This document shows, piece after piece, positions 5,162 through 23,273 of a stretch of DNA of 25,279 bases; positions within the stretch are counted from its first letter, which is position 1, and the number at the start of each line of letters is the position of its first letter. Origin of the DNA: a bacterium (lineage in GTDB: Bacteria; Actinomycetota; Acidimicrobiia; Acidimicrobiales; UBA8592); contig PATL01000033.1 in the NCBI GenBank assembly GCA_002713605.1, positions 1 to 25,279 on the forward strand, written 5' to 3'. A program made the translations under genes and the position numbers. The notes under the pieces are model-generated. The model was not told the origin of the DNA. It searched no databases and saw only the letters and a program-made list of their open reading frames with translations.

Positions 5162-6259
5162 TTACTTTTCTTGTTTAACCCAAACCGTACGCTGTGGGAA
5201 TGGCATCTCGATACCTTCCTCATCAAAAGCTTCTTTTATACGAATTCTTAGCTCACGTGCGACAGCCCATTGCTCAGATGGGTCTGTTTTGGCAACCAGT
5301 CGAAGAGTAATACCATCAATTCCAAGATTCTGAACTCCCGTAACTTTAGGTTGCTCGATAATATCTCCATCAAGAAAGCTATCATCCTGCCAAAGACCCT
5401 CAGCGACATCTTGCATGACCTGTTGTGCTTTTCTCAAATCAGTATCATAAGCGACGTCTATATCCAGTACAGCTCTTGACCAAACCTGTGACCGATTCCC
5501 CACTCGCGCTATTTCTCCATTTGGGATATACCATACACTCCCGTTAGTATCCCTAAGTATCGTCGTTCTGAGAGTCATTCTTTCTACCGTTCCAGAGGCG
5601 AGACCAACATCAACGGAATCCCCAACTCCGTATTGATCCTCTACGAGCATGAACATTCCAGATAAGAAGTCTTTGACGATAGATTGGGCACCAAATCCAA
5701 CTGCTACACCGACAATTCCAGCACCTGCAATTAGTGGTCCAAGATTTATACCTATCTCACCAAGAGAAATGAGCACGGCTACTGTCCAAATTACTAAATT
5801 AGCGATACTTGAAAGAACGGAAGTTAAAGTCTCAGTCCTTGCTTTTGTTCTTATATCTGATTGCTCACCCTGTAGGACATTGCTGGCTAGAACTTTGTCT
5901 TTAATCTTTTCGATTCCTTTTATTTTTTGTAATTGTGCAAGTGCTCGGTTTTCTCTTTCAGCAGTGAGGCGCTCACCAAAATGGACGATGGCTCGTTTGA
6001 CGACCCTTGAGCCTATAAAGGCCGCTAGAAGAACGATAAGAATTGTCAACGGTTTATCAACAGCCCAACCGATTACTGATGAAAGGGTTGCATTTCCTGA
6101 TGCATCATAAACCCATTCGCAAATCTGGCCGGGGTCATTGCCACATGCATCAATAAGGTCATCATTCACGGATTGCAAAGGAATTAAATCAAAGGACATA
6201 GAGAAATCGTAGAGAGTCCGGTCTTCATCATTGGTGATGGTCATAAAAAAAATCATCAT
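5162..6259 (-). CDS. MscS-family mechanosensitive ion channel
   Basis: This 365-residue membrane protein is expected to open under membrane tension and release solutes during osmotic downshock. Three hydrophobic segments are visible, at about residues 60-88, 145-168 and 173-203. The last is the pore-lining helix, rich in Gly and Ala (LIAGAGIVGVAVGFGAQSIV) and followed by KDFLSGMFMLVEDQYGVGD, the hallmark of MscS. The beta domain (TLRTTILRDTNGSVWYIPNGEI) and an alpha/beta C-terminal domain follow. Cys39 and Cys47 in the short N-terminal tail before the first helix could form a disulfide; that is inference. The start is uncertain: ATGs at 6259, 6256, 6244 and 6199 are in frame and none has a good ribosome site. 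It is convergent with valS and divergent from the molybdate regulator. Confidence 0.9.
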   Translation of the reverse strand: MMIFFMTITNDEDRTLYDFSMSFDLIPLQSVNDDLIDACGNDPGQICEWVYDASGNATLSSVIGWAVDKPLTILIVLLAAFIGSRVVKRAIVHFGERLTAERENRALAQLQKIKGIEKIKDKVLASNVLQGEQSDIRTKARTETLTSVLSSIANLVIWTVAVLISLGEIGINLGPLIAGAGIVGVAVGFGAQSIVKDFLSGMFMLVEDQYGVGDSVDVGLASGTVERMTLRTTILRDTNGSVWYIPNGEIARVGNRSQVWSRAVLDIDVAYDTDLRKAQQVMQDVAEGLWQDDSFLDGDIIEQPKVTGVQNLGIDGITLRLVAKTDPSEQWAVARELRIRIKEAFDEEGIEMPFPQRTVWVKQEK

Positions 6260-6325
6260 CTAGCATAAATAAACTTATAGTTCTAGAAAACTTATTTTTT
6301 ATTATGTGATTTTCATATATTTTAT

Positions 6326-6354
6326 TAGAATAAACCTATGAATAACATAGGTTT
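6326..6354 (+). promoter_or_regulatory. Candidate -10 box and 23-bp inverted repeat upstream of the HTH-TOBE regulator
   Basis: TAGAAT at 6326-6331 matches five of six bases of the TATAAT -10 consensus; no good -35 is seen about 17 bases upstream. Directly after it, 6332-6354 is a perfect inverted repeat with arms AAACCTATG and CATAGGTTT separated by AATAA. It ends 8 bases before the ATG at 6363. The position around the expected transcription start fits an operator bound by the adjacent HTH-TOBE protein (autoregulation by molybdate). Alternatively, as RNA it would fold into a 9-bp hairpin hiding the only purine-rich stretch (ATAGG) before the start codon. Function is inferred; the repeat itself is plain in the sequence. 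Confidence 0.6.
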
Positions 6355-6362
6355 TAAAAGTT

Positions 6363-6749
6363 ATGAGTAATTTACGCATTGGACAGGTGGCCGATCTTCT
6401 TGCAGTAAGTACTGACACTATAAGATCATGGATAGATGATGGAAAGATCCCATCAAGCAGAACCAGTGGCGGGCACAGAATAATCAAGGGGGCAGATCTC
6501 GCCAGATTCTTAACAGACGCTGACAATGATCCCTCCATCACTACGCATTTATCTGCCCGTAATCGATTTTTAGGTCTCGTCACAAATGTAAAAAAAGGTA
6601 ATGTAATGGCTCAAATCGAAATACAAGCAGGCGGTCAGAGAATAGTGTCCTTGATCTCTTCAGAGGCAGCAGAAGCAATGAAACTAAAACCCGGAGTAGT
6701 TGCTGCCGCAGTTATTAAGTCAACAAATGTTGTTGTTGAACTCCCCTGA
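6363..6749 (+). CDS. HTH (MerR/excisionase-like) plus TOBE/Mop domain protein, probable molybdate-responsive regulator
   Basis: This 128-residue protein has two parts. Residues 1-50 form a MerR/excisionase-type helix-turn-helix (IGQVADLLAVSTDTIRSWID, then the wing SGGHRI). Residues about 66-128 form a single TOBE (Mop) domain (NRFLGLVTNVKKGNVMAQIE to AAVIKSTNVVVELP), the fold that binds molybdate or tungstate in ModE, ModC and molbindins. It stands 26 bases upstream of modA in the same direction, so it most likely senses cytoplasmic molybdate and controls the transporter. It differs from classical E. coli ModE, which has a LysR-like winged helix and two Mop repeats. A single Mop domain implies that oligomers form the ligand sites. 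Role is inferred from domain content and position. Confidence 0.85.
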   Translation: MSNLRIGQVADLLAVSTDTIRSWIDDGKIPSSRTSGGHRIIKGADLARFLTDADNDPSITTHLSARNRFLGLVTNVKKGNVMAQIEIQAGGQRIVSLISSEAAEAMKLKPGVVAAAVIKSTNVVVELP

Positions 6750-6775
6750 TTTCACCCTAAAGGATAATTTTTGGA

Positions 6776-7504
6776 ATGAAACTATTCGTAAGCATATGCC
6801 TAGGCGTTACTTTATTATGTTTTAATCTGTCGTGTTCTGCATCAGGTGACTCTCTCCGAGTTCTAGCAGCAGCATCGCTAACAGAAGCATTTGAAGAAGT
6901 AGCTAAAGAGTTTGAAAATAACACAGGTGTCAAAGTTACGATTTCGATTGCCGGAAGCTCATCATTAGCAACTCAGATAGAAGATGGCGCCCCCGCCGAT
7001 GTAATTGCACTTGCCGACGAAGAGACATTTGAACGAGTTAAGACATCCGGTCGCCTTACCCAGCATGATGAAACCATTTTTGCTACAAACTACTTAACCA
7101 TTATTACACCCATTGGAAATCCGGCATCAATAAAAGAAATTTCTGACTTTGAGGGCCACATCATCGCTCTTTGCCAAGAACAAGTCCCGTGCGGTCGTCT
7201 AACTAAAGAACTCACTAACTCATTATCAATTCAGATCAAACCAGCAACGTGGGAACCAAATGTAAGGTCTGTCAGAACAAAAGTGGAATTAGGAGAAGTT
7301 GATGCAGGACTCGTATATATCACTGATGTAACAAACCGAGTTGTTTCAATTCCAATCGAAGAAAGCGAACAGATAAAAACTAGATATCCAATTGCAATAG
7401 TCGATAACGCAAAACCTTCCGCTGCGGAGTTCGTTGATTTTATTCTGTCTTCCACCGGACAAGGAATCCTAAATCGCCTTGGATTCGGAGAGCCCCAGAG
7501 ATGA
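6776..7504 (+). CDS. modA: Molybdate ABC transporter substrate-binding protein
   Basis: This 242-residue extracytoplasmic binding protein captures molybdate (or tungstate) for the ModBC permease. It begins with a hydrophobic secretion signal (LFVSICLGVTLLCFNLSC). Cys20 could be lipidated, but Asn at -3 is a poor lipobox, so lipoprotein status is uncertain. ModA blocks are clear: VLAAASLTEAFEEVAKEF, AGSSSLATQIEDGAPADV with the Ser residues that bind the oxyanion, and GEVDAGLVYITDV with the conserved Tyr. It is the first transporter gene and overlaps modB by 4 bases (ATGA), so the two are translationally coupled. Tungstate (Tup/Wtp) or sulfate use cannot be fully excluded, but the signature is that of ModA. 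Confidence 0.93.
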   Translation: MKLFVSICLGVTLLCFNLSCSASGDSLRVLAAASLTEAFEEVAKEFENNTGVKVTISIAGSSSLATQIEDGAPADVIALADEETFERVKTSGRLTQHDETIFATNYLTIITPIGNPASIKEISDFEGHIIALCQEQVPCGRLTKELTNSLSIQIKPATWEPNVRSVRTKVELGEVDAGLVYITDVTNRVVSIPIEESEQIKTRYPIAIVDNAKPSAAEFVDFILSSTGQGILNRLGFGEPQR

Positions 7505-8292
7505 AAACAAAACAACGACCGGTACCCACCAGTATTTTGGTAATAGCCACTATAGGCTTTGCTTTGCTAGCGATCCCATTTATTGGCTTAGCTCAGCGCA
7601 CTCCCTGGTCTTCGTTTGCTCAAATAGCAACAGAGGAAACTGTTCTACGATCCATTAGTCTCTCAATGATTATTGCAACAAGTTCCGCTTGCATTTGTTT
7701 GATCTTGGGAATCCCACTCGGTTGGATTTTAGCTAAGGCCAAATTTAGAGGACTGAAAATAGTAAGAGCAGTTGTTCTTCTGCCGATGGTTCTTCCTCCA
7801 GTCGCAGGAGGAACCGCATTACTGTTTGCACTGGGAAGGAAAGGTTTCATAGGGGAGAAATTAAACAGCTGGCTTGGGATAACCCTTCCGTTCACAACTG
7901 CAGGAGCGATAATAGCTGCGACGTTCGTTGCGCTACCCTTCTTCGTCTTGTCCATTGAGTCGTCCGCCAGTGAACTAGATTCAAAACTAGAGGAAGCATC
8001 TCTAAATTTAGGAGCTACTCCGATAAGAACCTTTTTCACAGTGACTCTTCCTATGTTACGGAATTCGATATTAGCTGGCATCGCTCTCTCTTGGGCAAGA
8101 GCACTTGGCGAATTCGGTGCGACTATTACATTTGCAGGAGATAATCCTGAACAAACTCGAACCTTGCCGTTGCAACTATTCGTGGCATTAGAAACCAATC
8201 CCGAAAGAGCAATGGTTATAGGCATGCTTATGGTGTTGATCTCTCTGTCTGTTCTCATCACACTCCGAGGGAATTGGCTGGGTCGGCGATGA
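7501..8292 (+). CDS. modB: Molybdate ABC transporter permease
   Basis: This 263-residue inner-membrane permease of the molybdate importer has about five or six hydrophobic helices, including ILVIATIGFALLAIPFIGLA at the N-terminus, VLLPMVLPPVAGGTALLFAL in the middle and MVIGMLMVLISLSVLITL near the end. The EAA loop that docks to the ATPase reads EEASLNLGATPIRTF, followed by TLPML. The motif LPPVAGG is typical of ModB and CysT/CysW-type permeases. Its start ATG overlaps the modA stop (ATGA), and its stop codon overlaps the preferred modC ATG in the same way. This tight arrangement supports production of the three subunits from one transcript. Confidence 0.94.
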   Translation: MKTKQRPVPTSILVIATIGFALLAIPFIGLAQRTPWSSFAQIATEETVLRSISLSMIIATSSACICLILGIPLGWILAKAKFRGLKIVRAVVLLPMVLPPVAGGTALLFALGRKGFIGEKLNSWLGITLPFTTAGAIIAATFVALPFFVLSIESSASELDSKLEEASLNLGATPIRTFFTVTLPMLRNSILAGIALSWARALGEFGATITFAGDNPEQTRTLPLQLFVALETNPERAMVIGMLMVLISLSVLITLRGNWLGRR

Positions 8293-9350
8293 CAGGAATC
8301 TACCTATCCGGAGAGACAAGACTTGGAACGGAAGGATTTGAATATTCGTTCGAAACAGGAACCAATAAACGCATAGCCATCATAGGTCCAAACGGATCGG
8401 GAAAAACCACATTATTACGCTTAATTGCTGGACATGAATACCTTAACTCAGGTTCACTAAAAATTGATGAGGTCATTTACGACGAACCAATTTCAAAACT
8501 CTTTGTTCCTCCGCACCTCAGAGAACTTGTCTTACAACATCAGGGAGGAAGCGTGTTCCCCCACTTAACAGTCGAAGATAACGTTGCTTTCCCCTACCGA
8601 GCCAAAGGGTATTCAAAAAGAAATGCCCAATCGCTTGCTACTGAAACCCTTATAGATTTTGATTTATGGAAACTCAAAGACAAGTATCCAAAACAACTCT
8701 CAGGAGGGCAGACTGCACGCGTTTCCTTAGCTAGATCTCTAACTAGGCGACCAAAGCTACTCATGCTTGATGAACCTACGTCAGCACTTGACGTTGAGTC
8801 GGTAAATCAAATCCATCAGATACTTCAAAAGTTGGATACTACGCTCTTGCTTGTTTCCCATGACCCTGTTGAAGTCCTTAAACTGTCAGATTACATCGTT
8901 GCTCTTGAAAGCAACAAGGTTATCCAGTTTGGTGACTTAGAATCAATCATTCACCAGCCTGCAAGCCCATGGCTGAGCAAGTTTTTTGATTTAAACCTAA
9001 TCTCAGGAGTAGCAACTGGCCTCGAATTTAAATCTGATGGTGGCGAAATTCTTCTATTGCCTCAACATTACTCCGGAAACGTTCAAATAAGTTTCCCTAG
9101 TTCAACTGTCTCACTCCACCTTTCCCCCCCAACCGAGTCTCCACGCAACAAGTGGAAAACTACAATTACCAGCCTTGATAGGAAAGACAATCTTGTCAAA
9201 ATCAAATTGAGTGGTTCGTTTGATTGCTATGCAACAATTACGCTTGCTTCATTCCATGAAATGGAGATTGCCTTAGGAAATACGATCTGGGCTTCTATAA
9301 AAGCTACCGAATTAAACGTGCTTCCGAGCACCACCCCTGCTAAAACTTAA
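8289..9350 (+). CDS. modC: Molybdate ABC transporter ATP-binding protein with C-terminal TOBE domain
   Basis: This is the ATPase that powers molybdate import, 353 residues from the ATG at 8289. Motifs in order are Walker A GPNGSGKTT, Q-loop VLQHQGGSVFPHLT, signature LSGGQTARVSLARSL, Walker B LLMLDEPTSALD and H-loop LLVSHDP. The last ~70 residues (TTITSLDRKDNLVKIKLSG to SIKATELNVLP) look like one TOBE domain, which in ModC senses internal molybdate and can inhibit transport. A TTG five codons upstream (8274) is open, but the ATG is preferred because it overlaps the modB stop as ATGA, exactly as modB overlaps modA. The stop is 2 bases before the next gene. Confidence 0.93.
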   Translation: MTGIYLSGETRLGTEGFEYSFETGTNKRIAIIGPNGSGKTTLLRLIAGHEYLNSGSLKIDEVIYDEPISKLFVPPHLRELVLQHQGGSVFPHLTVEDNVAFPYRAKGYSKRNAQSLATETLIDFDLWKLKDKYPKQLSGGQTARVSLARSLTRRPKLLMLDEPTSALDVESVNQIHQILQKLDTTLLLVSHDPVEVLKLSDYIVALESNKVIQFGDLESIIHQPASPWLSKFFDLNLISGVATGLEFKSDGGEILLLPQHYSGNVQISFPSSTVSLHLSPPTESPRNKWKTTITSLDRKDNLVKIKLSGSFDCYATITLASFHEMEIALGNTIWASIKATELNVLPSTTPAKT

Positions 9351-9352
9351 GC

Positions 9353-9841
9353 ATGCAGTCGTTCTCAACAGCTGACCTACTTGACGAATATCCTGAGTCG
9401 ATTGTGCTTATGGAAAATTTTCTTTCCTATGGCGAAGTGTCAACATTCTTTGGCAAAGCGAAGACAATCCACGCACCGGAGGACAATTCTTTAGTTCGTC
9501 AATCACTTGAAACAAAGGGAAATAATCAAGTTCTCGTAATAGACGGAGGAGCATCCCGGGCCTGCGCTTTGGTCGGAGACCAACTAGCGCTGCTGGCAAT
9601 AGAAAATGAGTGGGCTGGTATTATTGTAAATGGATATATCAGAGACTCGGCAGTCATCGCTGAAATGCCTATAGGAATAAAGGCTCTGGGAACAAACCCC
9701 AGAAAAAGTATCAAAAGGAATCGCGGGGAAGTTGATATCCAGCTAACTATTGCACAAATTCCGATAAAACCTGGCATCTGGATCTACTCGGATCCTGACG
9801 GGGTCATCATCTCGGAACACAATCTTCTTGTCTCTGAATAA
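9353..9841 (+). CDS. RraA-like protein (HMG/CHA aldolase fold)
   Basis: This 162-residue protein has the length and core motifs of the RraA / 4-hydroxy-4-methyl-2-oxoglutarate aldolase family. GDQLALLAIENEWAGIIVNG spans residues 75-94, and YIRDS follows with Arg97 and Asp98, the substrate- and metal-contacting pair of the aldolases. GIKALGTNPRKS matches the family 'v.A.g..P' block. The family contains both metal-dependent class II aldolases acting on HMG or oxaloacetate-like acids and the E. coli regulator that inhibits RNase E; sequence alone does not decide between them. It begins 2 bases after modC and is probably co-transcribed, an association with molybdate uptake for which no functional link is known to me. 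The AT-rich region after its stop lacks an obvious hairpin terminator. Confidence 0.85.
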   Translation: MQSFSTADLLDEYPESIVLMENFLSYGEVSTFFGKAKTIHAPEDNSLVRQSLETKGNNQVLVIDGGASRACALVGDQLALLAIENEWAGIIVNGYIRDSAVIAEMPIGIKALGTNPRKSIKRNRGEVDIQLTIAQIPIKPGIWIYSDPDGVIISEHNLLVSE

Positions 9842-9867
9842 AAAAACCAAAAAATATCCAACAACTA

Positions 9868-9898
9868 TTGACACGGGTGTAGTTACACGGCTGTAATT
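9868..9898 (+). promoter_or_regulatory. Candidate nrdAB promoter overlapping a 14-bp tandem repeat and a palindrome
   Basis: TTGACA (9868-9873) is a perfect -35 consensus. With an 18-base spacer it is followed by TGTAAT (9892-9897) as a possible -10. The spacer holds two head-to-tail 14-base units, ACACGGGTGTAGTT (9871-9884) and ACACGGCTGTAATT (9885-9898), identical at 12 of 14 positions. Across their junction is the palindrome GTGTA-GT-TACAC (9877-9888). Paired sites over the promoter are how the NrdR repressor acts on ribonucleotide reductase genes in many bacteria. However, the match to the published AT-rich NrdR box is only partial, so the binding protein is left open. Confidence 0.55.
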
Positions 9899-10031
9899 AT
9901 ATTCCAACCACTTTTTAATGAAGAAAAGCAGTTGGGTAACTGAAATCTTGAATCCATGAGTAGCGGAAAAGAATTCAGAGCAAGAACCACATAAAACTGG
10001 TTCGCTAGTTGGGGACATTTGAGGAGAAACG
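9899..10031 (+). other. nrdA 5' leader with two small hairpins and a strong ribosome site
   Basis: If transcription starts just after the candidate -10, the leader is about 125 bases. It contains a 5-bp hairpin CAGTT-GGGT-AACTG (9929-9942). Closer to the gene is a 6-bp hairpin AACTGG-TTCG-CTAGTT (9995-10010, one G-T pair), with a UUCG tetraloop. GAGGAG then lies 5 bases before the nrdA ATG. No known riboswitch was recognised. Confidence 0.4.
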
Positions 10032-12584
10032 ATGGCACTATCAGAACCATCCATTGAGAAAGAAAACAGCAAACAAACAACAGAAGAAAAACTCAATGGA
10101 ATTGACGAAGGTAACGTTCAGGTCATAGCCGGACCTACCGAAATTGAGGGGTCCGGTTCTGACAAAGAGAACGGAGCAAAAGCTAAGTCTGAACAAACTA
10201 CGACCATGCGCGTTCGTAAACGAAACGGGGACCTTGAAGAAGTAGATGTCAACAAAATCGTAAACGCTGTTGCACGTTGTGCTGAAGGGCTCATGGGAGT
10301 AGACCCTATGCGAGTCGCAACACGAACAATATCAGCCCTTGCAGATGGAGCGACTACAAGAGAACTTGATGAACTATCAATACGAACAGCTGCTGGATTA
10401 ATTGTTGAAGAGCCTCGATACTCCAGACTTGCTGGACGCCTGCTAGCGACATACATAGATAAAGAAGTACGAAACCAAAACATTCCGTGGTTTACTGAAT
10501 CAGTCATAAGAGGCCACGAGCTTGGTGTAGTAGGTGATAACGCATTGGCTTTCGTACTTGATAATGCTTCCACTCTTAATGCAGCAATAAATTCAGGCAG
10601 AGATAAGAACTTTGAATTCTTCGGGCTCCGCACAGTCTACGACCGATACCTCCTACGACACCCAGAGACTAGAGATGTAATAGAAACGCCACAGTATTTC
10701 TTTCTTCGAGTTGCGTGCGGACTTTCCCAAAATGTTGATGAAGCAGTCGCATTCTATGACTTAATGTCCTCTCTGGCCTATCTTCCTTCCAGCCCCACAC
10801 TTTTTAATTCTGGAACTACTCACCAACAACTTTCAAGCTGCTACCTTTTAGATTCCCCTGAAGATTCACTTGAAGGAATCTACAAGCGATATACAGACAT
10901 CGCTCAACTCTCAAAATTTGCTGGTGGCATCGGAGTCGCATGGCACCGGATAAGAAGTAAAGGAAGCCTTATCAAAGGCACAAACGGACTCTCAAACGGT
11001 ATAGTCCCTTGGTTAAAAACCCTGGATAGCTCAGTCGCCGCCGTGAATCAAGGGGGAAGAAGAAAAGGTGCTGCGTGTATCTACCTTGAAACATGGCATG
11101 ACGATATAGAAGAGTTCCTTGAGCTCAAACAAAATACTGGAGATCATGCAAGAAGAACTCACAATCTAAATATTGCAAATTGGGTACCCGACCTCTTCAT
11201 GAAAAGAGTTGAGAACAACTGGCAATGGAGCTTATTTGACCCTAAAAAAGTCCCTCATCTAACTGACTTATTTGGCGAGGAATTTGAAAAAGCATACATT
11301 GAGGCAGAAGAAGCAGAACTATACGAACGACAAGTAGATGCTCAAGATCTTTACCTAAAGATGATGCGAACATTAGCCGAAACTGGAAATGGCTGGATGA
11401 CGTTCAAGGATGCATCGAACCAAAAATGTAACCAAACCTCTGACAACAAATCTGAGAACGATTACGACGGTGGCACCCGTGTAGTGCACTTATCAAACCT
11501 ATGCACTGAAATAATCGAAGTAACAAACCAATCAGAAACAGCTGTATGTAACTTAGGGTCTCTGAACCTCGGATCTTTCGTCACTTCCGACGAAGTAGCA
11601 TCATTTGATTATGAAGAACTAGGAAAAACTGTAAGGCAAGTGATCCCATTCCTTGACCGTGTAATAGATATAAACTTCTACCCAATTAACGAGGCGGGTA
11701 ACTCAAATAGCCAATGGAGACCAGTCGGCTTGGGTATGATGGGACTACAAGACGTGTTCTTCAAAATGCAGATTCCTTTTGACTCTGAAGAAGCAAAAGA
11801 AATATCAGCAAGAATAAGTGAAGAAATATATTTCAACGCTCTATGGGCATCAACTGAACTCGCTGAAAAGAATGGCGCTCATGACACATTTACAATGACG
11901 CGAGCTGCCAAAGGGGATCTGCAATTTGACCTTTGGGGTGTTGAACCAACAGATCACGAACGTTGGAGTGGCCTACGCCAAAGAATTTCAGACCACGGTT
12001 TACGGAACTCACTGATGATAGCTATAGCTCCCACTGCAACAATTGCTTCAATAGCTGGGTGCTACGAGTGCATTGAACCCCAGGTTTCTAATTTATTCAA
12101 ACGCGAAACTCTTTCGGGAGAATTTATGCAAATTAATAAATACCTTGTCCATGAATTACAAGAGCGAAACCTATGGGATGAAGAAATGAGAACAGAACTA
12201 ATCCGGAATGAGGGTTCTGTACAAACAATTGAAAGAATCCCTGACGACTTGAAATCCGTATATAGAACTGCTTGGGAAATACCAATGAAATCCCTAATCG
12301 AAATGGCTGCTGACAGGGGTGCCTATATAGACCAGAGTCAATCATTAAACCTTTTCATGGAATCACCAACAATAAACAGACTTAGCTCTATGTATATGTT
12401 TGCCTGGAAGTCAGGAATTAAAACAACCTATTACCTAAGATCTCGCCCCGCTACGCGAATTAATCAAACTACAGTCAATACTTCAAGCCCGACACCATCA
12501 GGTGGAGACGGGCTAACCAATAAAACATCTGAAGAGCTCGCTTGTTCATTAGAAAACCCCGAATCATGCGACTCATGCCAATAA
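10032..12584 (+). CDS. nrdA: Ribonucleoside-diphosphate reductase, class Ia alpha (large) subunit
   Basis: This 850-residue catalytic subunit of aerobic ribonucleotide reductase makes dNDPs from NDPs together with NrdB. An acidic, polar extension of about 58 residues precedes an ATP-cone (RVRKRNGDLEEVDVNKIV onward), the allosteric activity site. Catalytic residues are visible: Cys270 (SSCYLL) and Cys506 (AVCNLGS) as the redox pair, the thiyl-radical Cys491 in SNLCTEI with Asn489 and Glu493, and the radical-relay pair Tyr800-Tyr801 (KTTYYLRSRP). The C-terminal tail ends with Cys846 and Cys849, which re-reduce the active site via thioredoxin or glutaredoxin. A strong ribosome site (GAGGAG) fixes the start. 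nrdB follows after 28 bases. Confidence 0.96.
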   Translation: MALSEPSIEKENSKQTTEEKLNGIDEGNVQVIAGPTEIEGSGSDKENGAKAKSEQTTTMRVRKRNGDLEEVDVNKIVNAVARCAEGLMGVDPMRVATRTISALADGATTRELDELSIRTAAGLIVEEPRYSRLAGRLLATYIDKEVRNQNIPWFTESVIRGHELGVVGDNALAFVLDNASTLNAAINSGRDKNFEFFGLRTVYDRYLLRHPETRDVIETPQYFFLRVACGLSQNVDEAVAFYDLMSSLAYLPSSPTLFNSGTTHQQLSSCYLLDSPEDSLEGIYKRYTDIAQLSKFAGGIGVAWHRIRSKGSLIKGTNGLSNGIVPWLKTLDSSVAAVNQGGRRKGAACIYLETWHDDIEEFLELKQNTGDHARRTHNLNIANWVPDLFMKRVENNWQWSLFDPKKVPHLTDLFGEEFEKAYIEAEEAELYERQVDAQDLYLKMMRTLAETGNGWMTFKDASNQKCNQTSDNKSENDYDGGTRVVHLSNLCTEIIEVTNQSETAVCNLGSLNLGSFVTSDEVASFDYEELGKTVRQVIPFLDRVIDINFYPINEAGNSNSQWRPVGLGMMGLQDVFFKMQIPFDSEEAKEISARISEEIYFNALWASTELAEKNGAHDTFTMTRAAKGDLQFDLWGVEPTDHERWSGLRQRISDHGLRNSLMIAIAPTATIASIAGCYECIEPQVSNLFKRETLSGEFMQINKYLVHELQERNLWDEEMRTELIRNEGSVQTIERIPDDLKSVYRTAWEIPMKSLIEMAADRGAYIDQSQSLNLFMESPTINRLSSMYMFAWKSGIKTTYYLRSRPATRINQTTVNTSSPTPSGGDGLTNKTSEELACSLENPESCDSCQ

Positions 12585-18454: not shown

Positions 18455-18562
18455 CCTCCATAGTGACAAAAGACACCGCCTATTGAGGAGCAATAAGTAC
18501 TTAATTAAGGCAGAATATTAATGGTCTTAATTCAAGACCACCCCCCTACCAAAGGATTAATA
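18455..18562. promoter_or_regulatory. Divergent region between mutA and the cyclic-nucleotide-binding gene
   Basis: This short region must hold the promoters for the mutA-mutB-meaB operon and the rightward genes. It contains a 10-bp perfect palindrome CTTAATTAAG at 18500-18509, next to AAGTACTT. Such AT-rich palindromes are common by chance, so this is only a possible operator. AAAGGA at 18551-18556 is the ribosome site that favours the ATG at 18563. Confidence 0.3.
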
Positions 18563-18961
18563 ATGGCAAAGAAATCATCTCACCATTTACAATACGCTGA
18601 TTTTGCCTTTGCGGCATCAGCGACTCCGCAAGAACTTGAGACACTCTGCAGGCTTACAACTCGTATAGACGTAAAGAAAGGAAGCATCCTAATGCATCAA
18701 GGCGCATTTGGAAATGAAGTGCTCTTGTTAGTTCATGGACAGCTTGTTATTGAGAAAGACGGAAAGCTGATAGCATCTATCGCCCCCGGCGCGGTTGTAG
18801 GTGAAAGAGCTGTGATTCTTAATGAACCAAGAGATGCGACCGTTCGAGCGGCTTATGGCTCAACTATATTAGCTATGTCTCGAAGCGAATTTAATACTCT
18901 CTTAGCTGAATGCCCAAGTATCGCTAGGAATATACTTGAAGAAGCACTTACCCGAGCATAG
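18563..18961 (+). CDS. Small single-domain cyclic-nucleotide-binding (Crp-like sensor) protein
   Basis: This 132-residue protein consists of little more than one cNMP-binding beta-roll. After a short lead (ATPQELETLCRLTTRIDVKKG) come the jelly-roll strands GSILMHQGAFGNEVLLLVHG and QLVIEKDGKLIASIAPGAVVG. The phosphate-binding cassette GERAVILNEPRDATV follows, keeping the Glu and Arg that contact cyclic nucleotide. No DNA-binding helix-turn-helix follows, unlike Crp/Fnr, so it may act as a stand-alone sensor or by protein contact. The start at 18563 (AAAGGA six bases upstream) is preferred over an ATG 14 codons earlier at 18521. It precedes the P450-UbiB fusion by about 97 bases on the same strand. 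Ligand binding is inferred. Confidence 0.85.
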   Translation: MAKKSSHHLQYADFAFAASATPQELETLCRLTTRIDVKKGSILMHQGAFGNEVLLLVHGQLVIEKDGKLIASIAPGAVVGERAVILNEPRDATVRAAYGSTILAMSRSEFNTLLAECPSIARNILEEALTRA

Positions 18962-19058: not shown

Positions 19059-21980
19059 ATGACAACGACTGAAGATAACTCAGCTTCTGCAACTGGAGTA
19101 GTTGATGTCAGTGCACCCGGCGCTGTCCCATTCGTAGAACTCTCAGCTACAAATTTCGGCGAGATATTGTCACTCACAGAATCTATGACAAATCAAGGTT
19201 GGGTTGTTACTACACCTGCTGGCCCGATGGTACTAGGCTACAAGCAGGTCAAATCTATTCTTAGAAATCCCGAGTGGATATCACTTCTATCAAGCTTCTC
19301 CGCTTTAGATCAAATGGAAAATGGGATTTCTGATTTGAACGTCATGCTTGAACAAGCTCAGCGAATTGTTCCCGAAATTCCTTCAACAGTCAAAATGCGC
19401 CCAAATGTCTTATCCGTAGAAGGAGAAGACCATAAACGGCTACGACGACTGGTTAATTCTTCATTCACCTCTGGCAATACAAATAAACATCGTGAATTCA
19501 TGAAAAATCATGCAGACAGCTTGGTCTCAAGCATAGTTGGAAATGGTGGAGGAGAACTTGTCTCTGAATTCTGTCGCCCTTTCCCTGTTCCAGTGATTTG
19601 CCGCATCCTCGGGGTTGATGATAATGACTGGAAACTTTTTGACGAATGGGCAGACATAATATTCTCTGCCCTCGACGCAGATATTGAGTCCGTTATTGGA
19701 CGTTTAGGTGAAATATCAAAAGCTCAAAAAGATCTTGACGCCTATATCCAGAACCTAATCGTTAAGAGGATCAGTTCCCCAGAAGATGATTTACTAACTG
19801 AGCTAGTTCAAAGTCACTACAACGATGACCGCCTCTCACATGATGAATTGAGCGCGATGGTTGAAGCTATATTACTCGCTGGGACTGACACTACCCGAAA
19901 CCAGTTAGGAGCAACAATTGCGGTGCTAGCAGACCACCCAGAGCAGTACCAAGCATTAAGAAATGACCCTTCTCTCATTCCTGCAGCTGTAGAAGAATCA
20001 CTTCGGTATATAAGCGCTGTTAGAACAACCGGTCGCTTAGCTACTACTGATCAAGTAATAGACGGGATTCTCTTTCCTGCGGGAACAACAGTCCTTCTGG
20101 GGCTTCACGCTGGGGGACTTTCTGAAGCACAAGAAAAGGGGTTCGAATTTAATATCTTTAGAGAAAGTGGCTGTCCTCATCTAGCTTTTGGGTCCGGAGC
20201 TCATCACTGCCTCGGCGCCTCACTTGCTCGCGCTGAGTTACAAGAAGCCTTGACATCTTTTGTTGAGAAGGTTTCATCATATGAGCTTATTTCTCCAGTT
20301 GAGTGGAAACCTCTGTCAATGGGAATCTGGGGTCCAGCAAAACTTAAAATCAAAATTTTAGGTGACCATAAAAGCGATATATCCCAGAATCAAACAAACT
20401 TTAAGACCACAGTCAAGGCAGAGTCAAAACTTGAAGAAAACCAAACATCTGAAATCATCAATCAGTGGATCCGGGAGGCAGATAAGAAGAGGCGAACACT
20501 GCGCCTATCAATACCTGATCTGATAAGGAAGCCAAAATTTCCACCGTTAATTCGTTTGCTAGTTACAGTCTTCCGATTCGGGAAAGCTTTCATATTGTGG
20601 AAAGTCCGAGACCGCAAAGCCTCAGCATCAGAGAAACAAGGGCTCCTTTATGAAAGGCTTCGCCATGTTGCTGAACTTCAAGGACCCACCTACGTCAAGC
20701 TCGCTCAACTAATTTCTGCAGCGGAAGGCGTCTTCCCTGAAGCTCTGGTTGCTGAATGTAAAAAATGTAGAGATCAAGTATCTCCAGAACCATGGAAAGA
20801 AGTTTCAAAAGTTCTCAATGATGAATTAGATAACAGAAGGTCAGATATTGTTTCAGTGAATCAGGTTCCTATTGCTGCTGCTTCAATTGCTCAAGTGCAT
20901 GAAGCGGTTCTTAGTAACGGTTCAGATGTTGTAATAAAAATACAACGACCGGGAATACGAAAAAAGGTAATTGATGATCTGAAAGTGATGGCATGGGTCG
21001 CTCCGAAACTTGTAGGTAAAATACCAGTCGCTGCTCTTGCCAACCCTCCTGCCCTCGTCGAGCTTTTCGCAGAAACAATCTGTGAGGAGTTAGATTTCAA
21101 ACTGGAAGTAGCTAACTTATTTGAGATCAGAAGAGTTCTTTATTCAAATTTGAAGCAAGAGTGGGAAATTCCCGACCCTGAGCTCGGACTTGTTACCGAG
21201 CGAGTGATAGTTATGACTAAGATTTCTGGCGTATCACTTGGTGATTCAATAGCTATGGGAATTGATAGTGAGAGTAGTTCTGCCGTCTTCCGACAGATGG
21301 TTGAAGGCCTGTTAGAGGGCGCTGTTATCCATGGTATTTTCCATGGAGACTTTCATGCAGGAAACGTTTTTCTTAACCAATCAGAAAAAATAGGTCTTGT
21401 AGATTTTGGAATAACGGGTCGACTTGATGGTGCTCGGCGTCAGGCATTTCTCAGATACGTAGTCGGTCTAATGACCGGAGACGTTGAATCTCAAGTCGTT
21501 GGAATAAAAGACCTAGGGGCTTTCCCTGAAGATGCTGACATAGGTCTGTTGATAAACGAATTCCAACTTGAGCGCAACAACTTTGACCCTCTCGAGCTAT
21601 CAGAGGAAGAATTTATTGATGAATTTCGAGGTCTTATCAAGGGCCTCCTCGCTGAAGGTGCGCGCATTCCAAAAGAACTTATGCTCTTTGTAAAGAACTT
21701 TGCTTACCTATCGTCAGTCATGCAGGAACTAGATCCTGAAATGGATTTACTTAATGAATTCTTGGAAGTTGCGTCTGCTTTTTTTGGCAGAAACGGGGTA
21801 CGAGTTGCGACCGAAATAGGGTTTTCACTAAGTGCTGATGATGTGAATGATATAACCTTTAGAAGGGTTGCTGGTATTCGAGAGAGTGTTCCTTCCTTAA
21901 CATGGAAAGAGCTTGGAGAGCGAAGAAATTCTTTAATGGACAGAATGGATAGACGGTCCATTAAGCAAATTATTGAATGA
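19059..21980 (+). CDS. Cytochrome P450 fused to an ABC1/UbiB (AarF)-type kinase-like domain
   Basis: One uninterrupted frame of 973 residues joins two enzymes. Residues about 30-435 are a soluble bacterial P450: I-helix AGTDTT (274-279), K-helix E313xxR316, and heme loop FGSGAHHCLG with Cys384 as thiolate ligand. A polar linker (about 436-480) leads to an ABC1/UbiB domain. There GPTYVKLAQ (Lys547, Gln550) replaces the usual KxGQ, and the Ala-rich loop AAASIAQVH (606-614), IK at 626-627 as probable ATP lysine, ELDFKLEVAN, HGDFHAGN (762-769) and DFG (782-784) follow. No C-terminal membrane segment is evident, unlike classical UbiB. UbiB proteins are ATPases needed for quinone and other lipid metabolism; P450s oxygenate hydrophobic compounds. 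A role in lipid or isoprenoid oxidation is inference. The ribosome site is weak. FKBP and SDR genes follow. Confidence 0.92.
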   Translation: MTTTEDNSASATGVVDVSAPGAVPFVELSATNFGEILSLTESMTNQGWVVTTPAGPMVLGYKQVKSILRNPEWISLLSSFSALDQMENGISDLNVMLEQAQRIVPEIPSTVKMRPNVLSVEGEDHKRLRRLVNSSFTSGNTNKHREFMKNHADSLVSSIVGNGGGELVSEFCRPFPVPVICRILGVDDNDWKLFDEWADIIFSALDADIESVIGRLGEISKAQKDLDAYIQNLIVKRISSPEDDLLTELVQSHYNDDRLSHDELSAMVEAILLAGTDTTRNQLGATIAVLADHPEQYQALRNDPSLIPAAVEESLRYISAVRTTGRLATTDQVIDGILFPAGTTVLLGLHAGGLSEAQEKGFEFNIFRESGCPHLAFGSGAHHCLGASLARAELQEALTSFVEKVSSYELISPVEWKPLSMGIWGPAKLKIKILGDHKSDISQNQTNFKTTVKAESKLEENQTSEIINQWIREADKKRRTLRLSIPDLIRKPKFPPLIRLLVTVFRFGKAFILWKVRDRKASASEKQGLLYERLRHVAELQGPTYVKLAQLISAAEGVFPEALVAECKKCRDQVSPEPWKEVSKVLNDELDNRRSDIVSVNQVPIAAASIAQVHEAVLSNGSDVVIKIQRPGIRKKVIDDLKVMAWVAPKLVGKIPVAALANPPALVELFAETICEELDFKLEVANLFEIRRVLYSNLKQEWEIPDPELGLVTERVIVMTKISGVSLGDSIAMGIDSESSSAVFRQMVEGLLEGAVIHGIFHGDFHAGNVFLNQSEKIGLVDFGITGRLDGARRQAFLRYVVGLMTGDVESQVVGIKDLGAFPEDADIGLLINEFQLERNNFDPLELSEEEFIDEFRGLIKGLLAEGARIPKELMLFVKNFAYLSSVMQELDPEMDLLNEFLEVASAFFGRNGVRVATEIGFSLSADDVNDITFRRVAGIRESVPSLTWKELGERRNSLMDRMDRRSIKQIIE

Positions 21981-22037: not shown

Positions 22038-22418
22038 ATGAATTCATTTGAAAAACCAGCAGTTGATGGACTCTTTGAGGGCAACCCGCCAACTGAATTA
22101 GTTCTAGAGGACCTAATCATCGGTGATGGGGCAGAGTGTGAGTCCGGACAAATTGTCAGTGTGGATTACGTCGGTATCTCATGGTCTACAGGTGTCGAAT
22201 TTGATTCATCGTGGTCTCGTAACGAAGTTTTTGCTTTTCATCTGGGAGGAGGACAAGTTATTTCAGGATGGGATGAAGGCTGCAAGGGTATGAGAATTGG
22301 AGGACGCCGGAAACTCATAATCCCTCCAGAGAAGGGGTATGGGTCCCAAGGCGCCGGTGGCGTTATAGCCCCTAACGAAACGCTTGTTTTTATAGTTGAT
22401 CTAAGAAGCATCGGTTAG
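22038..22418 (+). CDS. FKBP-type peptidyl-prolyl cis-trans isomerase
   Basis: This 126-residue single-domain FKBP lacks a signal peptide, so it should act in the cytoplasm. It keeps the pocket residues of FKBP12: Tyr in SVDYVG, Asp in EFDSSW, Phe in FAFHLG, the Val-Ile-x-x-Trp core VISGW, Tyr in KGYGSQG, and the final APNETLVFIVDL strand. It catalyses proline isomerisation or acts as a folding helper. AAGGAG five bases before the ATG fixes the start. It lies 57 bases after the P450-UbiB gene and 12 bases before the SDR gene in the same direction, so co-transcription is likely. Confidence 0.93.
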   Translation: MNSFEKPAVDGLFEGNPPTELVLEDLIIGDGAECESGQIVSVDYVGISWSTGVEFDSSWSRNEVFAFHLGGGQVISGWDEGCKGMRIGGRRKLIIPPEKGYGSQGAGGVIAPNETLVFIVDLRSIG

Positions 22419-22430
22419 CTAGGAGGATAA

Positions 22431-23273
22431 ATGCAAGAAGATGAACTCAGAGGAAAAGTAGCGGTAGTAACAGGCTCTAGTCGAGGAATCGGTAGAGGTA
22501 TCGCTGTGGGGCTGGGAGAAAAAGGAGCAACTGTTTACATAACAGGGAGATCAAAAGGAGATGGCCCTTTAACAATCGATGAAACTGCCAAGATGGTTAA
22601 TGATGCTGGAGGCGTAGGGGTGCCCGTGTCGGTGGATCTCGGAGACGATGAACAAATAGTGAGGTTGTATCAACAAATAGAAAGTGATCACGGCAGACTA
22701 GATATTCACGTTAACAACGCTTTCAAGATCCCTAACCCACCTGTATGGGGGGGTAAATTCTGGGAGCACCCTATTCAAGTGTGGGATGACCAAGTCGGAA
22801 TTGGCCTCCGTGCAGCATACGTAGCCAGTGTTCATGCAACGAAACTGATGATGTCAGGCACCGATTCTCTGAAATTTATTGCGAATATCTCCTCGAGCGG
22901 ATCGGAACGCTACGCCCTAAGCGCAAGTTATGGAATCGCTAAGATGGGAACAGACCGCCTCACTCGTGATTTTGCAGTTGAAGGTAAAGAAGATGGACTT
23001 TGCGTTATAGGTCTTTGGCCGAGCCAAGTATTAACGGAATTCATTATAGAAAGTATTGAAAAGGGAGACATAGAATTAGATGAAGAGAACTCCGAAACCC
23101 CACTCTATACGGGACGAGTTATAGCTAAACTTGCCACAGATGATCAGAGGTTCGAGCGAAATGGGCAAGTTTTAACAACAGCTGAATTAGCAGTACATTA
23201 TGACATCAAAGATGAGCGTGGCAAACAACCAAGAGGTAAGCGCAATCCTACGCTATTCAGAGAAATAATTTAG
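22431..23273 (+). CDS. Short-chain dehydrogenase/reductase, DHRS1-like
   Basis: This 280-residue Rossmann-fold oxidoreductase has the NAD(P)-binding motif VVTGSSRGIGRGIA near the N-terminus, GRS after the second strand, VNNAF for the NNA motif, and SSSGSERYALSASYGIAK with the catalytic Ser, Tyr and Lys. The segments around GRSKGDGPLTIDETAKMVNDAG and the long insertion after VNNAF (PNPPVWGGKFWEHP) resemble the DHRS1 subgroup, whose bacterial members have no agreed substrate. An Arg after GRG and GRS suggests NADP(H), but this is not certain. AGGAGG five bases before the ATG gives a strong start. It ends 8 bases from the convergent thioesterase gene. Confidence 0.92.
   Translation: MQEDELRGKVAVVTGSSRGIGRGIAVGLGEKGATVYITGRSKGDGPLTIDETAKMVNDAGGVGVPVSVDLGDDEQIVRLYQQIESDHGRLDIHVNNAFKIPNPPVWGGKFWEHPIQVWDDQVGIGLRAAYVASVHATKLMMSGTDSLKFIANISSSGSERYALSASYGIAKMGTDRLTRDFAVEGKEDGLCVIGLWPSQVLTEFIIESIEKGDIELDEENSETPLYTGRVIAKLATDDQRFERNGQVLTTAELAVHYDIKDERGKQPRGKRNPTLFREII

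Follow-up and report, generated by a model that had tools for sequence, protein, structure and literature searches.

A single-chain fusion of a cytochrome P450 and a UbiB/COQ8-type ATPase-like domain in marine and sponge-associated actinobacteria

The fusion gene and its two halves

The stretch of DNA analyzed here, hereafter the window, covers 25,279 nucleotides of contig PATL01000033.1 from a member of the Acidimicrobiales (assembly GCA_002713605.1), and its positions 19059..21980 on the forward strand form one open reading frame (ORF) of 973 amino acids (aa) with an ATG start and no internal stop. The predicted product matches the Pfam families p450 at residues 116-404 (E value of 5.7e-26) and ABC1 at residues 570-810 (E value of 1.8e-47). 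Read from its sequence, it is a single-chain protein joining a cytochrome P450 with intact catalytic motifs to a UbiB/COQ8-type ATPase-like domain, as had been proposed in an initial annotation made from the DNA letters alone. Relatives bear this out, as both Pfam domains are found in 93 of the 120 listed, with identities to the window's protein from 93% down to 47%. The two component families are already known, and it is their combination that constitutes a new domain architecture. Fused chains of this type are already in public records, under the name "cytochrome P450" or the name "ubiquinone biosynthesis protein." No paper describing a P450-UbiB fusion was found in the open-licence literature searched, in keeping with the initial annotation, which named no characterized protein of this kind; a description elsewhere is possible.

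Residue conservation was taken from a 38-row alignment of fused relatives, and the presence of motifs from a set of 99 fused proteins made up of the window's protein, 86 database clusters of at least 930 aa, and 12 proteins from loci, with one identical pair among them. The P450 domain, placed at residues 28-434 by alignment to P450BioI (19140..20360; like all further features of the fusion, on the forward strand), contains the I-helix motif AGTDTT (residues 274-279, 19878..19895), in which Gly275, Thr278, and Thr279 are invariant in 38/38 rows and Asp277 is kept in at least 90%. The two named residues of the ExxR motif (Glu313-Arg316, 19995..20006) and Cys384 of the heme-binding loop FGSGAHHCLG (residues 377-386, 20187..20216) are likewise invariant in 38/38. 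All three motifs, in the forms FxxGxxxCxG, ExxR, and (A/G)Gx(D/E)T, are present in the window's protein and in 98 of the 99 fused proteins, with P0091 as the exception. The fold of PF00067 is found in the fusion as well, and both fold and motifs are common to P450BioI, OleP, and similar bacterial P450s, which are 20 to 32% identical to it and lack the ATPase domain.

The closest P450s found are standalone sister P450s of the Acidimicrobiia (L111-L124 and L128-L130; 38 to 45% identity), encoded by separate genes at other loci. The meander region HAGGLSEAQEK (residues 350-360, 20106..20138) sets the two groups apart: the fused P450s carry a derived sequence, whereas most sister P450s retain an ANRD-like motif and read AANRD-like at this point. 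As P450cam is likewise not known to have an ANRD-like meander motif, the fused meander can be regarded as variation and not as a defect. An insertion of variable length directly before the heme loop was also observed in the meander of fused ORFs from three Poriferisodalis-like loci (L154, L155, and L156) and in P0059 and P0063.

The second half opens with a long helix in the model (residues 459-488, 20433..20522), followed by the hydrophobic-basic helix LIRLLVTVFRFGKAFILWKVR (residues 497-517, 20547..20609), which its modeled structure and hydropathy mark as a candidate membrane-contact helix. The 19-residue segment at 496 has a mean hydropathy of 1.38, the third-highest start in the fusion, and the same 19-residue scan found no clear transmembrane span in the protein. 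The ABC1 atypical kinase-like domain (residues 570-810, 20766..21488) scores 162 bits, above the curated PF03109 cutoff of 22.9, and all motifs of the family are present. These are the Ala-rich loop AAAS (residues 606-609, 20874..20885; 606, 608, and 609 invariant and 607 kept in at least 90%), the ATP lysine Lys627 (20937..20939, invariant in 38/38), the catalytic loop HGDFHAGN of the HGDxHxGN form (residues 762-769, 21342..21365; all eight residues invariant, including Asp764 and Asn769), and DFG at the Mg site (residues 782-784, 21402..21410; Asp782 and Gly784 invariant). The motifs that the initial annotation had named in either half are thus all located and strongly conserved.

Strict KxGQ is a motif of UbiB proteins, and at its position the fusion reads KLAQ (residues 547-550, 20697..20708), as do 99/99 fused proteins. 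The 45 standalone relatives compared have KLAQ in 21 cases and KLGQ in 23, with one unmatched; a loss of KxGQ specific to the fusion was therefore rejected, and KLAQ is no mark of the fusion. The score against the UbiB equivalog TIGR01982 (230 bits) lies below the cutoff of 487.55, and the protein is therefore not filed as UbiB itself. Within PF03109, COQ8A, MSMEG_1954, and Rv3197 are chains of 313 to 401 residues without a P450 and are approximately 19 to 23% identical to the fusion, which differs from COQ8A and the mycobacterial ABC1 proteins in having KLAQ for KxGQ and no clear transmembrane span.

Structure models show a P450 fold and, in the ABC1 part, a COQ8A fold with its N-terminal helical extension. 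The comparison of the whole model with the PDB covered the P450 only, and the kinase part was therefore folded separately. The full-length AlphaFold model has a pLDDT of 75.2 and a pTM of 0.74, and the arrangement of the two domains relative to each other is only moderately well predicted.

Continuity, origin, and spread of the fusion

Between the two halves lies a polar linker (approximately residues 435-458, 20361..20432), in which the model places neither helix nor strand and pLDDT falls below 50 at residues 438-446. No stop or frameshift occurs between residues 435 and 480, where the initial annotation had seen the place for a break into two proteins: the frame is open, and the anchors flanking the linker are present, in 99/99 fused proteins, with a spacing of 108 to 211 aa (median of 115). 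The only apparent break among the loci, in L014, is a run of N. It could be argued that the sources are mostly metagenome assemblies, but they are many and separate, including L007 (record "isolate AG-410-G14") and the megabase contigs P0006 and P0063, so that a single misassembly cannot account for the fusion. An artefact or a two-protein reading is largely rejected on these grounds.

A further route to two products would be translation starting internally at codon 421 (20319..20321), which lies shortly before the linker, is an in-frame ATG in 25 of 26 loci, and is the called start of P0085, P0097, and P0098, proteins of about the length of the standalone kinases. None of seven Shine-Dalgarno-like words tested occurs upstream of this codon in the 26 loci. 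The 99 fused proteins have Met at this residue in 80 cases, Leu in 14, and Gln in 5, and thus a residue other than Met in 19. Codon 421 as an internal start giving an additional free kinase is possible but unsupported. In the linker DNA of the 26 loci, no start codon is common to all and two loci have none at all; a TTG near position 73 is found in several, and one linker start codon in L012 and one in L164 have a Shine-Dalgarno-like word ahead of them.

Phylogeny was analyzed separately for each half, in unrooted trees. The P450 tree (37 fused and 17 standalone rows) places the fused rows on one side of a branch with support of 100/100, and the kinase tree, made with a quick method (37 fused and 45 standalone rows), again places them on one side with support of 100. 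Support is weak (82/13) for the grouping of the fused with the sister P450s that leaves L131 outside. The trees fit one origin of the fusion, and the two halves have diverged in step and are co-evolving, their pairwise identities correlating with an r of 0.88 over 666 pairs.

Unfused counterparts of both halves exist. Two genomes, G643 and G444, hold a sister P450 in addition to the fusion, which marks the sister P450s as a sister group and not as its direct ancestor. Several of the standalone sister P450s (L138-L153) lie near an apparent polyamine-type substrate-binding protein and an apparent aldehyde dehydrogenase, by sequence reading. On the kinase side, standalone AarF/UbiB proteins of other Acidimicrobiales (P0099-P0120 and L016-L041) are 40 to 44% identical to the fusion over approximately 500 residues (26 aligned), and most begin with a conserved segment resembling D-x-x-x-G-x-F-S-D-x-x-P-W, which is missing from the fusion. 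A phmmer search of the ORFs of L016-L041 with the window's P450 half (E value of 1e-5) found no P450 beside these kinases. Two standalone kinase matches (G199:C1:1106472-1107971 and G308:C2:94649-96148) contain one internal TGA each.

The carriers of the fusion are marine and sponge-associated actinobacteria, and no viral carrier was confirmed. One fused cluster, P0001, represents 501 sequences. The 27 listed relatives without a P450 domain call comprise 22 standalone kinases (P0099-P0120, each about 540 aa long) and five others; P0085 and P0095-P0098, which are 53 to 82% identical to the window's protein, align only from residue 337, 345, or 421 onward and are either fragments or true splits. 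The genome collection gave 15 loci with both P450 and kinase parts (L011 cut by a contig end and L014 holding the N gap) beside standalone kinases. Among 397 genomes of the order, 29 carry the fusion, with the copies of G406 and G407 broken by an N gap and a contig end. They comprise 13 genomes of the window's family, 7 Poriferisodalis-like genomes, whose fused protein is 84 to 87% identical to one named Candidatus Poriferisodalis, and 9 others. Across the class as a whole the fusion is rare: of 395 sampled genomes, two candidates being scored in each, only G004 showed it among the matches listed, together with many separate kinases.

Within the window's family the fusion occurs in 14 of 20 genomes, and two larger genomes have an unfused kinase; no full-length ABC1 match was found in four (G409, G410, G412, and G413), genomes that may be incomplete. 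Nine fused genomes were checked, and the fusion is the sole full-length ABC1 protein in each. Apart from a partial ABC1 match in G001 that lies at the edge of a contig and scores 75.7 bits, their other matches cover part of the profile and do not exceed 35 bits. G008 has two different fused copies on two contigs (L009 and L013), either a true duplicate or a sign of a mixed metagenome-assembled genome.

Gene neighborhood and genomic context

In the window, the fusion gene starts 97 bp after the gene of a small cyclic-nucleotide-binding protein (18521-18961) and ends 57 bp before that of an FKBP isomerase (22038-22418), with an SDR gene next (22431-23273). Sixteen loci were compared (L001-L015 and L033), several of them truncated by a contig end; the cyclic-nucleotide-binding protein is found in 13 and the FKBP and SDR in 15 each. 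The flanking genes thus keep a largely fixed order in close relatives and may form a shared operon with the fusion. Elsewhere in the window, positions 6363-9350 encode a MerR/TOBE regulator, a solute-binding protein, a permease, and a TOBE-domain ATPase, probably a molybdate-type ABC importer.

A different neighborhood was found at 12 fused loci outside the window's family, taken from nine other lineages and three of the seven Poriferisodalis-like genomes. The gene directly after the fusion encodes a CarH-like regulator with helix-turn-helix and B12-binding domains in 8 of the 12 loci, that is, in eight of the nine other lineages and none of the three Poriferisodalis-like genomes. The end of the fusion gene and the start of the regulator gene share 4 bp at five loci and 11 bp at another. 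Around the regulator are an HpnE/CrtI-like flavin adenine dinucleotide oxidoreductase (six loci), an NmrA/DUF2867 protein (six), a DUF1295 protein (seven), an acyltransferase (seven), and a photolyase (five). The Wx9EH motif, described as a mark of the CarH photoreceptor in the available text of one report (PMC9304148), is present in 8/8 regulators beside the fusion, and the B12 lower-ligand motif D/ExHx2G/P is present in six (L160-L165), L157 and L158 reading EEHGLV there. The B12-binding regulator with Wx9EH and the photolyase, found in 5/12 loci, are thus shared with CarH/LitR operons. Unlike those operons, the sister-clade loci show WERRY of the RxWERRY DNA-recognition helix in 0/8 regulators, a score against the CarH NCBIfam equivalog below the cutoff (66.3 against 400 bits for L161, the one scanned), no recognizable tandem operator, and no phytoene synthase in the genomes searched.

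CarH-like regulators occur in 114 of the 397 genomes of the order (E value of 1e-15), mostly without the fusion, and 16 loci around them were retrieved from genomes considered unfused. On their evidence, a split form of the light operon was rejected, the operon core being kept at only one of them, L179 of G602. Here, at 5568-12008, fasciclin and heliorhodopsin genes (the latter at 293.6 bits) lie upstream of the regulator, and NmrA/DUF2867, DUF1295, and photolyase, the last in two ORFs, come after it; G602 has 15 P450 matches to the fusion and no ABC1 match. This gene set of G602 supports the reading of the regulator's neighborhood as a light operon. Four of the 16 loci (L182, L183, L186, and L190) also hold a distant ABC1-like ORF (25 to 27% identity) elsewhere in the stretch. 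In L186 the ORFs between it and the regulator are presumably involved in biotin synthesis, from their likeness, and the distant ABC1-like ORFs were therefore not counted as linkage. At L177 (G166), a comparison with the operon proteins of L158, L161, and L163 and with the fusion gave no matching ORF; it carries little weight, as it missed the regulator itself, probably because a longer, overlapping ORF had been retained.

The nine fused genomes checked for P450s have 9 to 25 matches each, so the fusion is not the sole P450 of its genome. Squalene/phytoene synthase (PF00494) was found in 0/19 genomes (17 fused and 2 unfused, which may be incomplete), with a control search positive in 7 of 14 known genomes, and a carotenoid, squalene, or hopanoid substrate is thereby unsupported. 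UbiA-family members are present in 19/19. They include MenA above its curated cutoff in both genomes examined, G003 and G004, which makes menaquinone available as an isoprenoid quinone. Both also have one UbiA member closest to decaprenyl-phosphate phosphoribosyltransferase, below the cutoff, and one member in G003 is heme O synthase.

Possible function and alternatives

When these results are placed beside known systems, it can be hypothesized that the fusion is a membrane-peripheral, ATP-driven presenter of a prenyl lipid, most likely menaquinone or a precursor, to its tethered P450; we put the probability of this at roughly 0.45, slightly below even odds. The ABC1 domain would lie on the membrane face via the helix at residues 497-517, and ATP binding and hydrolysis would lift or expose a very hydrophobic lipid. 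This lipid would be passed to the P450 kept close by the linker and hydroxylated there, a separate ferredoxin system supplying the electrons. Light would probably induce the gene in sister lineages, via the B12-dependent CarH-like repressor. We infer every functional element of this scheme: the ATPase activity, the contact with the membrane, the hand-over, the identities of the substrate and the redox partner, and the control by light.

The scheme draws on two sets of proposals. In the available text on COQ8, its ATPase may be coupled to the extraction of hydrophobic coenzyme Q intermediates for processing (PMC10376127), and in the accessible part of another study the ATPase of COQ8B rises tenfold with the COQ6:COQ3 pair (PMC7615680). 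The pairing in the fusion is similar, with a membrane lipid handler and an O2-dependent hydroxylase, but here in one chain. The other proposal concerns CYP128A1, a P450 hypothesized, in the portions available, to hydroxylate menaquinone in an actinobacterium (PMC6469627; PMC7404182). The COQ8 extraction model and the CYP128A1 hypothesis together place menaquinone first among substrates. The initial annotation had suggested ATP-dependent extraction or presentation of a lipid to the monooxygenase, perhaps of an isoprenoid or quinone. The extraction step fits the COQ8 proposals, and menaquinone is available as an isoprenoid quinone, whereas carotenoids, squalene, and hopanoids look excluded in the 19/19 genomes searched, which may be incomplete; as a whole that interpretation is plausible and partly supported.

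Several observations weigh against presentation of a prenyl lipid and its control by light. In the window, no recognizable gene cluster for quinones or isoprenoids adjoins the fusion gene, and no quinone gene was found among the sister-lineage neighbors scanned. The linker varies in length, as would be expected of a loose tether more than of a fixed channel, the full-length model is of moderate quality (pLDDT of 75.2, pTM of 0.74), and strict KxGQ is replaced by KLAQ. In what is available of the COQ8B study, COQ8B with ATP did not speed up COQ3 or COQ6 alone, and COQ3 was phosphorylated (PMC7615680). As to light, no counterpart of the CarH operator, given in the accessible text as a tandem 11-bp nAnnTnnACAn (PMC8156234), was found upstream of the sister-clade operons; the best scores (10 to 12 out of 15) fell mostly within genes and were no better than in control loci. 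As the DNA-binding helix of these regulators differs from that of CarH, another operator is possible. The CarH-like regulator is also absent from 13/13 genomes of the window's family, which thus gives no sign of light control, from G589, and from the three Poriferisodalis-like genomes, so that such control belongs to part of the family. It is a doubtful, if conceivable, extension that the protein is a light-inducible, ATP-driven lipid oxygenase, in which the UbiB domain would feed menaquinone or another prenyl lipid in cis to the P450, the hydroxylated product would protect against photo-oxidation, and a B12 photoreceptor would take part in some lineages.

The best-surviving alternative retains the tethered presenter but takes a fatty-acyl or phospholipid chain as the substrate, whose oxidation would form part of how the membrane responds to light or singlet oxygen, much as in the formation of furan fatty acids. 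We consider this possible, if tentative, given that a UfaM-type methylase is unseen among the operon genes scanned and that, the known partners of UbiB domains being prenylated lipids, an acyl P450 has no obvious need of such a domain.

It is unlikely that the ABC1 domain instead regulates or matures the P450, through a nucleotide-dependent switch, phosphorylation, or loading of heme or a redox partner, with no lipid delivery. The divergence of the fused meander from that of the sister P450s could be placed in this context, the meander side of a P450 being its usual redox-partner binding side. Conservation of the Ala-rich loop points the other way, as this loop is held to disfavor protein kinase activity in UbiB proteins. 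Such activity is nevertheless possible in the family, as COQ8B phosphorylates COQ3 in the available text (PMC7615680).

More improbable is that the fusion merely equalizes the expression of two independently acting proteins of one pathway, with no direct coupling. The wide range of linker spacing and the existence of both parts as separate, unlinked genes in relatives would suit this; the single-origin trees, the halves diverging in step, and the absence of any other full-length ABC1 protein from the nine genomes checked speak for coupling, but this counter-case is not clean, as P0085 and P0095-P0098 lack most or all of the P450. That two proteins are made, whether by an assembly or reading artefact or by internal initiation with a free kinase as the main product, is highly improbable in view of the open frame and the many fused sources described above.

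How UbiB/COQ8 proteins use ATP is a long-standing question, made hard by partners and lipids that are scattered in membranes. We know of no earlier case of a UbiB-family protein covalently joined to the enzyme that it serves, and this natural fusion points to a class of partner for the UbiB-type domain, an O2-dependent hydroxylase. It also offers a spectral readout, by which binding and turnover at the P450 can be compared in the presence and absence of ATP. Through the B12-dependent regulator in sister lineages, it points to a link of the UbiB family to the light response outside plants and cyanobacteria. The fusion is therefore a direct route to learning what UbiB-type ATPases, which are thought to handle membrane lipids, do.

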